Below are positions 4,460-8,988 of a stretch of 64,000 bases of DNA, in pieces. Made by a program: the position numbers and the translations under genes. Below the pieces are notes generated by a model that was not told the DNA's origin, made no database searches, and saw only the letters and a list, made by a program, of their open reading frames with translations. This stretch comes from Ignavibacteriota bacterium (lineage in GTDB: Bacteria > Bacteroidota > Ignavibacteria > Tepidaquicellales > Tepidaquicellaceae). Each line of letters opens with the position of its first letter. The stretch's first letter is position 1. The stretch lies in the NCBI GenBank assembly GCA_016218085.1, contig JACREY010000008.1, positions 124,001-188,000 of the forward strand, written 5' to 3'.

Positions 4460-6145
4460 ATGAAATTTATCAATTTTTTGCTTTTAATTTTTACTGCAAT
4501 AGTCTTTTTTGCCTGCTCAAAAAGTGAGACAACTGTATTTCTGAATGGAAAAATATATACATTGGATAAGAACAATTCAGTTGTAGAGGCAATCGCTGTA
4601 AAGGATGGAAAAATCATAGATTTAGGGAAAAGTAATGAAATTAAAGATAAATATGGAAAAGAGAAAACCGTTGATTTAGCAGGTAAAACCGTTTTACCCG
4701 GATTTATTGAATCTGAAGGCTCTCTTGTGGATTTTTCGCTCGAGCTTGCAAGGTATAACAATATGGCAGATTTGAAAAATCTTAAGAGTATTGAAAAAAT
4801 TATTAATGCCGTAACCGATAAAGTGAAAAACTCAAAAGAAGGTTCGTGGGTTGGAGGATACGGTTGGGATGATGAAAGTCTTGCCGGTGAGATAGAATTA
4901 ATTACAAAAAGTACTCTGGATAAAATATCCACTAAACATCATATATACTTGATTAACAGTGACGGGACAATTGTATGGTGCAACTCAAAAGTAATTAAAG
5001 CCCTGCAGATTACAAATCTGACTCCTTCACCAGAAGGCGGAGAAATAAGCAGGGATGATAATGGTGAACTTGACGGGCTGTTGTTTGGTAAAGCAATAAA
5101 TCTTGTTAAGGAGAAACTTCCGAAATTCACAAAGGAAGACATGCAAAATGCCCTTGAAGGTGGTGCCAGGGAAATGCTAAAATATGGAATTACAGGTGTG
5201 GCAGACAGGAATTTAACAAGCGAGTCGATTAATGCATTTAAAGAGCTTATAGACAGCAGCAGAATACCAATTCATATTTATGCTATTCTCACAGGAAGTG
5301 ACGAGGCATTCGGCGAGTATCTTAATAAAGGAATTGTAGCTGACTATAAGAATAAACTTTCGGTCAGGTCAGTAACACTTGATTATGACGGAGCATTCGA
5401 GCTTCAGAGTGCTGCTATGAGTGAAAACTACAAAACTGAAAGTAAGAAGAAAAATCCATATACGGATGAAGCCACAATTGAAAAAACTCTGAGAGCCGCA
5501 CTGGATAAGAATTTTCAGTTCACAATTAAGACTGTTGGTGATGAAGCTGTTAACAGGGTATTGAACATAATAGAAAAGGTTATTAAGGAAAAGAATCCCA
5601 AAGATGCCAGAATAAAACTTGAGAATGTTGAATTTATAAGCCAGAGCGATTTGAACAGGATTAAGGAATTGAAGATAATACTTTCTGTAAGGCCTGAATC
5701 GAGTGTATCAGATATGGATTATATCAATATTCTGATTTCACCTGAAGCAAAAAAGAATTTTGCATTATGGAATTCTATGATTAAGAGTGCGGGATTAATT
5801 ACAAGCGGATCGGGATTTCCGTTCAGTCTTTCCATAAGCCCTTTAACCGGTATTTATTATCTGACTGCCAGGCAGCCTGTTGATACTTTATTAAGCGATG
5901 TACCGAATCCTGACCAGAAAATTTCAGTTCAGGATGCCGTAAAGGCATATACTGTCTGGGCTGCGTATTCAACTTTCCAGGAGGAAACAAGGGGAACGCT
6001 TGAGAAGGGCAAGTTTGCAGATATGGTAGTGCTTTCGGATGATATTTTTAATTTAACCGGAACTGCAATACTGAATACAAAAGTAATAATGACGATTGTT
6101 AACGGAATAGTAGAATATGAAATCAAAGAAAACAAAACGAAGTAA
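4460..6145 (+). CDS. Amidohydrolase-superfamily lipoprotein (YtcJ-like) lacking metal ligands
   Basis: The 561-residue protein begins with a lipoprotein-type signal (FLLLIFTAIVFFACSKS, Cys19) and then follows the YtcJ-like amidohydrolase pattern. These landmarks include VFLNGKIYTLDKNNSVVEAI, VDLAGKTVLPGFIES, GYGWDD, KYGITGVADRN, a late AYTVWAAYSTFQEETRGTLE and GKFADMVVLSDD. The expected metal ligands are all replaced. HxH becomes E86/S88, the Lys of 'VKL.DG' becomes T306, the His of 'HAIGD' becomes K357, the His of 'EHAQ' becomes N389 and the Asp of 'GSDFP' becomes G452. The fold is kept but hydrolytic activity looks lost. Its stop overlaps the prmC start (TAATG). The function is unknown; it could bind a ligand or have a structural role. 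Confidence 0.85.
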   Translation: MKFINFLLLIFTAIVFFACSKSETTVFLNGKIYTLDKNNSVVEAIAVKDGKIIDLGKSNEIKDKYGKEKTVDLAGKTVLPGFIESEGSLVDFSLELARYNNMADLKNLKSIEKIINAVTDKVKNSKEGSWVGGYGWDDESLAGEIELITKSTLDKISTKHHIYLINSDGTIVWCNSKVIKALQITNLTPSPEGGEISRDDNGELDGLLFGKAINLVKEKLPKFTKEDMQNALEGGAREMLKYGITGVADRNLTSESINAFKELIDSSRIPIHIYAILTGSDEAFGEYLNKGIVADYKNKLSVRSVTLDYDGAFELQSAAMSENYKTESKKKNPYTDEATIEKTLRAALDKNFQFTIKTVGDEAVNRVLNIIEKVIKEKNPKDARIKLENVEFISQSDLNRIKELKIILSVRPESSVSDMDYINILISPEAKKNFALWNSMIKSAGLITSGSGFPFSLSISPLTGIYYLTARQPVDTLLSDVPNPDQKISVQDAVKAYTVWAAYSTFQEETRGTLEKGKFADMVVLSDDIFNLTGTAILNTKVIMTIVNGIVEYEIKENKTK

Positions 6146-7012: not shown

Positions 7013-7459
7013 ATGATTGCGGTAGTTCAAAGGGTATTAAAATCAGGAGTAGAAGTAGAAGGAAAAACAGTCAGCAGAATATCAAAAGGCCTGCTTGTAT
7101 TCTTAGGAGTAAAAAAGGGAGACAGAGAGGATAATGCTGATACACTGGCAAAGAAAATTGCCGGCCTGAGAATATTTCCTGATAAAGAAGGAAAGATGAA
7201 CCTGAATGTAGGCGATACGGGTGGCGAGATACTCGTAATCTCACAATTCACACTTTGCACAGACAACAGCAAAAGCGGTAACAGGCCGAGCTTTACATTT
7301 GCAGAAGACCCGGAAAGGGCAAATTCGCTTTATGAATATTTTATCGGAAGGCTTAAGGCAGAATACAATGCCGGTAAAATATTCTCGGGGGTCTTTGCGG
7401 CTGAAATGAAAGTTGATATTCTAAACGACGGTCCAGTAACTATAATACTCGAAAAATAA
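7013..7459 (+). CDS. dtd: D-aminoacyl-tRNA deacylase
   Basis: This enzyme frees tRNA from wrongly attached D-amino acids and glycine, using an RNA-based mechanism in the cytosol. The 148 residues match the family length. MIAVVQRVLKSGVEVEG is the typical start, LVISQFTLCTD contains the SQFT active-site motif, and SGNRPSF with the C-terminal NDGPVTIILE completes the cross-subunit Gly-Pro signature region. It starts 1 nt after prmC and is followed after 1 nt by the DUF2520 gene. Confidence 0.96.
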   Translation: MIAVVQRVLKSGVEVEGKTVSRISKGLLVFLGVKKGDREDNADTLAKKIAGLRIFPDKEGKMNLNVGDTGGEILVISQFTLCTDNSKSGNRPSFTFAEDPERANSLYEYFIGRLKAEYNAGKIFSGVFAAEMKVDILNDGPVTIILEK

Positions 7460-7460
7460 T

Positions 7461-8366
7461 TTGACTGGAATTAAAAAATATCTCAATAAGAAGATTTGCC
7501 TTGTCGGACTTGGCAAGGTCGGATCTGCATTGTATCACGCGCTTATTAATTCAGGTTTACCTGTAAGCAGTGTTGTGGAAAAAAATACAAGACAGGGGAA
7601 AAGAATTATTTCGGGACGCAATGATGTCGCTTTCAGGAAAAATATTACAGGAAAAATATTAAAAGAATGTGATGTAATTATTTATTCAGTGCAGGAAAAG
7701 AATCTGAAAGATGCAGTCGGCGAACTTAAAAAGTATAAAAAAATCCTGAATGATAAAATCCTGCTTCATACCAGCGGAGTTGAAACTTCGGAATTATTTG
7801 AATCCGTTTCGTCAAGAAAAGCATTGAACGGCTCATTTCATCCATTACAGACATTTAATCATATATCATATAATAATAATAACTTGCTGAATAATATATA
7901 CTTTGGAATAGAGGGCGGTAGTGTTGCTGTAAAGTATGCAAAAATTATTTGCAGTGTTCTGGAATGCCGTCATATAGTTATTCCAAAAAGCAAAAAAACA
8001 TTTTATCACAGCTTATGTGTGATAGCTTCGAATTTCCTAGTAACTCATTATAATATATTAGGCAGACTTTCTGAAGAGCTGTCTCCCGATAAAAAAAGTG
8101 GAATAGAAATATTTGAAGCTATAATCAGAACCACTACCGATAATGTTTTTATACACGGAACTCAGAAATCATTAACCGGCCCTTTTGCGAGAGGCGATAT
8201 AAAGACCATCCAAAAGCACCTTGAATATATGAGAGAGAATATCCCGAATCACTTGTATTATTATGTTCTGCACGGGCTTGAGGCACTTTCATTATCTGTG
8301 AAAGAAAAAAAAATAGAGCGGAAAACTGCTGAACAAATTGAAAAATTATTAATTAAGTTTATATAA
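7461..8366 (+). CDS. Rossmann-fold dehydrogenase-like protein (DUF2520)
   Basis: This 301-residue protein opens with a dinucleotide-binding fold (KICLVGLGKVGSALYHALIN, GxGxxG). It continues with HTSGVETSELF and NGSFHPLQTF, which are family landmarks, and a helical C-terminal DUF2520 dimerisation domain. Proteins of this family resemble ProC and 6-phosphogluconate dehydrogenase-type oxidoreductases, but no substrate is established. The start is TTG, 1 nt after the dtd stop; translation is probably coupled to dtd. Confidence 0.88.
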   Translation: MTGIKKYLNKKICLVGLGKVGSALYHALINSGLPVSSVVEKNTRQGKRIISGRNDVAFRKNITGKILKECDVIIYSVQEKNLKDAVGELKKYKKILNDKILLHTSGVETSELFESVSSRKALNGSFHPLQTFNHISYNNNNLLNNIYFGIEGGSVAVKYAKIICSVLECRHIVIPKSKKTFYHSLCVIASNFLVTHYNILGRLSEELSPDKKSGIEIFEAIIRTTTDNVFIHGTQKSLTGPFARGDIKTIQKHLEYMRENIPNHLYYYVLHGLEALSLSVKEKKIERKTAEQIEKLLIKFI

Positions 8367-8373
8367 ATCCGAA

Positions 8374-8988
8374 ATGAGAATAACCAAATTATTATTTCTG
8401 CTGCTGATATTACTTGCAGCAGGATACAGCTGCTCACAGGAAGATTCATTAAAGGCAGGTCTGAAAAATTTAAATTATAAAAAACCGGGCGGTATCTTCA
8501 TTTCTCCTGTTCTTGGGGCTGAATTTCCTACAAGGGATTTTGTATCAAATTCGAAATACGCTTTCTGTATCGGGGGTAAACTTGAATATTCTTCTCTAAA
8601 CATTTATCCTCTCGTCATAGGTGCTTCCATACAATATCAGAATCACAGCGGGGCTGATGATTTCAAGACAAAGTATCTTCTGAATTCCTTAAGCACAAAA
8701 ATTACTTCATTCGGAGCAAGTGTAGATATCCTTCTGAATAAATATCTTAATTCAAGTTTCACAATCCCGTTCGTTTTTCTCGAAGCAAAGATGCTTAATG
8801 TAAAGAGGGAAGCTTCGCCCGAAAGCAACTACCCTGATTTCAAAAGCACGGACAGCAAAATAGGATACGGTATTGGAGGTGGTTTTACATTATACATTTT
8901 CGATATTTACGGGACTTATTTCTATGCTAAGGAATACAGCACTGTTTCCGTTAAGATGAGATTCAGATTCCCTCTGATAAAATTTTAA
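8374..8988 (+). CDS. Putative outer-membrane beta-barrel protein
   Basis: The 204-residue product has an N-terminal signal peptide (residues 1-20, LLFLLLILLAAGYSC). The rest alternates hydrophobic and polar residues with many aromatics and glycines, for example GIFISPVLGAEFPTRDF and KIGYGIGGGFTLYIFDIYG, ending in MRFRFPLIKF. That ending and pattern suggest a small eight-stranded barrel. A lipidated Cys at residue 20 is possible but the lipobox is poor. It lies 7 nt after the DUF2520 gene and its stop overlaps the convergent glycosyltransferase gene by 4 nt. No specific function is recognised. Confidence 0.7.
   Translation: MRITKLLFLLLILLAAGYSCSQEDSLKAGLKNLNYKKPGGIFISPVLGAEFPTRDFVSNSKYAFCIGGKLEYSSLNIYPLVIGASIQYQNHSGADDFKTKYLLNSLSTKITSFGASVDILLNKYLNSSFTIPFVFLEAKMLNVKREASPESNYPDFKSTDSKIGYGIGGGFTLYIFDIYGTYFYAKEYSTVSVKMRFRFPLIKF

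Follow-up and report, generated by a model that had tools for sequence, protein, structure and literature searches.

A predicted pseudo-amidohydrolase lipoprotein with charged residues at its former metal site, encoded upstream of prmC and dtd in an Ignavibacteria order

An amidohydrolase-fold lipoprotein gene upstream of prmC and dtd

The window analyzed here is a 64,000-nucleotide stretch of contig JACREY010000008.1 (assembly GCA_016218085.1, Ignavibacteriota bacterium), in which we examined the following genes and features:

4460..6145, + strand: pseudo-amidohydrolase lipoprotein, PF07969, 561 aa
4460..4516, + strand: signal-peptide-like N-terminus of the lipoprotein, with Cys 19, the predicted lipidation site, as its last residue
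6145..7011, + strand: prmC (Pfam), its start overlapping the lipoprotein stop by one base
7013..7459, + strand: dtd, D-aminoacyl-tRNA deacylase (Pfam)
7461..8366, + strand: Rossmann/DUF2520 protein, the next gene of the conserved cluster
8374..8988, + strand: apparent secreted protein, family-less, position conserved

The first open reading frame starts with ATG, has no internal stops and encodes a product that matches PF07969 over residues 69-550 (E = 3.8e-74), scoring 251 bits against a curated Pfam cut-off of 29.7, which places it in the family. Its nearest solved structures are the Pyrococcus YtcJ-like proteins 3ICJ and 3IGH; both align with it from end to end at 22-23% identity, and the DG and GD motifs are kept. 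AlphaFold2, given the window protein together with proteins from related loci, returned a model of the lipoprotein with a mean pLDDT of 92 and the (beta/alpha)8 barrel and beta-sandwich of amidohydrolases. The best structural matches of this model were again 3IGH (Z 48.4 over 476 residues, rmsd 4.2) and 3ICJ (Z 45.9 over 462 residues, rmsd 3.5). At the N-terminus, a signal-peptide-like helix precedes Cys 19, which is Cys in every member of the clade described below that covers the column; the protein is a predicted lipoprotein on the strength of this hydrophobic N-terminus and invariant Cys, and a cell-envelope location is most likely. Fold, lipidation and gene context had been proposed in the initial annotation, and all three are supported by the PF07969 match, by Cys 19 and by the Pfam assignments of prmC and dtd, two genes for the quality of translation.

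In the sequence TAATG the lipoprotein stop codon overlaps the start of prmC, and the initial annotation had proposed that translation of the two genes is coupled. The overlap is real in the window but is not a conserved feature: in most relatives the gap between the two genes ranges from -14 to +45 nt (the value is larger or absent at a few loci whose frames are shifted or whose starts are unclear). The gaps support an operon but not strict coupling. The order AH-prmC-dtd-DUF2520-unknown-GT2 is kept across clade loci with enough flanking sequence. Nothing specific came out of scans for promoters and terminators. The product of 8374..8988 has no Pfam match, and throughout the order its gene follows the DUF2520 gene in the same position.

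Replacement of the metal and catalytic residues

In the alignment with 3ICJ, residues E86, S88, T306, K357, N389 and G452 of the window protein fall in the columns of H-x-H, Lys, His, His and Asp, respectively, so that the canonical enzyme set is absent from it. The sites are as follows:

4715..4723, + strand: E86-G-S88, replacing H-x-H of strand 1 (alignment)
5375..5383, + strand: T306, replacing the bridging Lys of strand 4, with D308, a clade-specific acid
5528..5530, + strand: K357, replacing the strand-5 His; Lys in 42/42 clade members
5624..5632, + strand: N389, replacing the strand-6 His, with E391, a clade-specific acid
5690..5698, + strand: R411 and E413, two charges specific to the clade, where strand 7 ends
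5813..5815, + strand: G452, replacing the strand-8 Asp; Asp retained in 31/42 clade members

The same six columns hold the complete metal and catalytic set in 116 aligned non-redundant homologues, and the six substituted residues lie on or just after strands of the model (82-87, 300-308, 353-357, 386-388 and 447-449). The substitutions are thus located where the initial annotation had put them, by alignment with the structure as well as with the homologues. In metalloBSH of Bilophila wadsworthia, another PF07969 protein, changing any of the six corresponding residues to alanine kills activity (PMC13081902). The window protein should be inactive by the canonical mechanism, and we infer from its sequence that both metal binding and hydrolysis have been lost.

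Conservation and selection across the clade

We searched 59 genomes from the same family, order and class, and found proteins of 41-73% identity in two families (f1 and f2) of one order. After the records of a second collection had been added and duplicates removed, the clade set comprised 42 sequences, some of them partial, with the following residues at the six positions:

Position 86 (H-x-H, first His): Glu 31, Asp 7, Asn 2; Glu or Asp in 38/40
Position 88 (H-x-H, second His): Ser 26, Asn 14, and nothing else
Position 306 (strand-4 Lys): Ser 30, Thr 8, Cys 2, Gly 1, Glu 1; Ser, Thr or Cys in 40/42
Position 357 (strand-5 His): Lys in all members
Position 389 (strand-6 His): Tyr 28, His 7, Asn 3, Ser 2, Gly 1, Ala 1; the His thus retained in 7
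Position 452 (strand-8 Asp): Asp 31, Asn 6, Gly 3, Glu 2

H-x-H is missing from every member that covers the site, as are the Lys of strand 4 and the His of strand 5. The whole clade thus shares four of the six losses, and those on strands 6 and 8 are patchy. The claim that every ligand is replaced holds in full for the window protein but for only a minority of its relatives; the window lineage (the window protein, L002 and L003), in which the strand-8 Asp has become Gly, is among the most degraded of the clade.

All clade records are metagenome-assembled genomes, most of them named Ignavibacteria or Ignavibacteriae bacterium and some Chlorobi or Bacteroidetes bacterium. Beyond the order, no additional members were seen in 294 genomes of the class or 395 of the phylum, where the best non-members scored below 500 bits and clade members about 650 or more. 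Three genomes (G031, G037 and G041) yielded no clade gene; prmC was also fragmentary or not found in them, the fragment in G031 sitting at a contig start, so missing sequence is likelier than true gene absence.

Across the clade, dN/dS was about 0.03-0.12 for unsaturated pairs; between the window gene and that of its genus mate dS was saturated, with pN 0.16 and pS 0.76. The clade gene is under strong purifying selection. This, together with the conservation of the replacement residues in close homologues, K357 above all, agrees with the earlier view that the substitutions are not random decay. We applied a definition of pseudoenzymes as proteins without the conserved catalytic motif of their own family (PMC10211241), and the clade protein falls within it, with the family motif missing and the protein maintained by selection.

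Origin of the clade

A maximum-likelihood tree of 130 proteins placed all clade members on a single branch (SH-aLRT 100), surrounded by class-level homologues with all six residues; the stem of this branch is long, at 1.0 change per column. The tree table counts two changes because L055, a truncated protein missing the H-x-H region, had been grouped as "pseudo"; it belongs with the intact proteins. Such class-level homologues (for example L245, L222, L236 and L045) resemble the window protein in sequence (about 28-34% identity) and in having an N-terminal membrane or lipid anchor, and several are encoded upstream of prmC-dtd, but they retain the six ligands and are presumed active. Nearest to the clade among the intact proteins are the lipoproteins L045, L237 and L241 of family f12, a pairing with an SH-aLRT of 83. 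Families f4, f13 and f17 have an all-ligand homologue with a hydrophobic N-terminal anchor within about 4 kb upstream of prmC-dtd, and in L245 the intact-type gene directly adjoins prmC-dtd. The metal site was probably lost in place, with vertical descent of the gene thereafter; given the weak support for the sister group, this leans mainly on gene order.

At three loci of f4 and f13 (L236:7735-8991, L218:8696-9871 and L047:7237-8331), the gene of a multi-spanning membrane protein separates the intact-type homologue from prmC. The protein looks transporter-like by eye and is a possible hint to the ancestral substrate.

Other PF07969 proteins were also encountered. A second, independent partial loss was seen in three lipoproteins of family f8 (L230:7484-9238, L231:6905-8659 and L246:7856-9610, from genomes G147, G160 and G068), which keep H-x-H and have Arg for the strand-4 Lys, Glu for the strand-5 His and Cys or Gly for the strand-6 His; L246 also has Gly for the strand-8 Asp. 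Their same-genus homologue L046 retains all six residues. The genome of the window encodes a second PF07969 protein (L031, G000:C20:16251-17726) with all ligands, and most genomes of the order have paralogues like it. Proteins of this type start at the domain and have no signal peptide; they would therefore be cytosolic, and a heteromer of L031 with the lipoprotein is unlikely. At L064:3370-9138 (G020), three PF07969 genes stand in tandem, all with intact ligands.

Gained charges around the old metal site

We scanned the alignment for charges conserved in at least 90% of the clade and at most 20% of the intact homologues. Eight were found: acids at 86, 293, 308, 391 and 413 and bases at 297, 357 and 411. 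Six of them (E86, D308, K357, E391, R411 and E413) surround the former metal site, where strands 1, 4, 5, 6 and 7 end, an enrichment with P = 4e-5 (0.002 leaving out the two catalytic positions). The pocket windows for this test were drawn manually from the strand ends of the model, once an initial list of clade-specific changes was known but ahead of the charge scan. The entropy of these six columns is below that of the mean column. Positions 86/88, 306/308, 389/391 and 411/413 form pairs two residues apart, and two such residues on a strand would face the same side, here the barrel interior. The strand positions in the model suggest that a charged network has replaced the zinc centre, a pattern not expected of neutral decay, and salt bridges may link the new charges.

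Interpretation

We favor, with a probability of roughly two in three, the reading that the protein is a pseudoenzyme in which the zinc centre of a YtcJ-like ancestor became a charged cluster, and which now serves as a non-hydrolytic binder on the envelope face. The ancestor would have been a membrane-anchored YtcJ-like metallohydrolase whose gene already lay upstream of prmC-dtd, and its binuclear metal site would have been lost once, in the common ancestor of the two families. Barrel, inserted domain and lipid anchor would have been retained while the metal site was rebuilt from acids 86, 308, 391 and 413 and bases 357 and 411, the charged network taking over the structural job of the zincs. 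The protein would act at the periplasmic or outer-membrane face, where the old pocket may hold a small ligand or partner protein, or mediate the hold on one. We read the role of the charged cluster as ligand binding or structural.

A different use of the same residues would be a metal-free enzyme, with zinc chemistry swapped for acid-base or Lys catalysis by K357 and either the strand-8 Asp or acids 308, 391 and 413. The invariance of K357 and near invariance of the new acids fit this, and 31/42 members still have the strand-8 Asp, which normally acts as the general base, so that metal-free activity is possible in most of the clade. The lactonase LigI is a metal-independent member of the amidohydrolase superfamily, which also counts in its favor. 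Another point for it is the migration of catalytic residues in some pseudoenzymes (PMC10211241). However, the strand-8 position is Gly in the window protein and its two nearest relatives and Asn or Glu in others; the clade can thus do without the usual base, and we consider such an enzyme unlikely. Slightly less doubtful, and still speculative, is the wider proposition that the protein is either a metal-free enzyme or a periplasmic receptor, its Lys/Arg/acid network representing a new chemistry of the YtcJ branch or a sensing function linked to prmC-dtd.

Less probable than either is that the pocket is irrelevant and that only the scaffold or surface matters, for assembly or a structural partner. 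The drift of the strand-6 and strand-8 ligands in parts of the clade would suit such a role, and PyrC', with aspartate transcarbamoylase as its partner (PMC2770081), is a precedent; yet the new charges are concentrated in the pocket, with conservation above that of the average column, which this explanation accounts for only if they serve stability alone. That the gene is decaying, or that errors of sequencing, alignment or frame produced the pattern, is very improbable: the window lineage has lost two more ligands than most of the clade (N389 and G452), but the substitutions are common to independent genomes, frames are intact, dN/dS is far below 1, and the alignment agrees with the high-confidence model.

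Three known systems can be compared with the window protein. YtcJ-like PF07969 proteins (3ICJ, 3IGH and metalloBSH; PMC13081902) share the full-length fold and domain order, but the window protein differs in having all six residues replaced and new Lys, Arg and acidic residues at the metal site. The CRMPs (dihydropyrimidinase-related proteins) likewise have an amidohydrolase fold kept by selection, have lost most ligands and the bridging Lys (CRMP-4 retains two of the six metal ligands; PMC4051505) and have no parent-type hydrolase activity, but they belong to the PF01979 branch and the animal cytosol, with another set of losses and an unrelated pathway. PyrC' of pseudomonads is an inactive dihydroorotase required for aspartate transcarbamoylase assembly (PMC2770081, citing Schurr 1995). 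It too is a dead bacterial amidohydrolase retained for a non-catalytic role; it differs in its dihydroorotase branch and in having a known partner, and is not known to carry a lipoprotein signal. The initial annotation had thought it new for a dead amidohydrolase to have a non-catalytic role, but CRMP-4 and PyrC' are precedents. In the open-access literature searched, we found no published report of a ligand-free protein of the YtcJ/PF07969 branch. What is new here is that conserved, clade-specific charges (E86, D308, K357, E391, R411 and E413) have taken the place of the old metal site.

For the order, the activity part of the "amidohydrolase" annotation of this gene is probably wrong. The clade apparently arose once and has about 40 members, and neighbouring families hold intact relatives, some of which share its gene context; with the single origin, the intact relatives and the specific replacement, the transition between a zinc enzyme and a protein without metal can be reconstructed and tested residue by residue.
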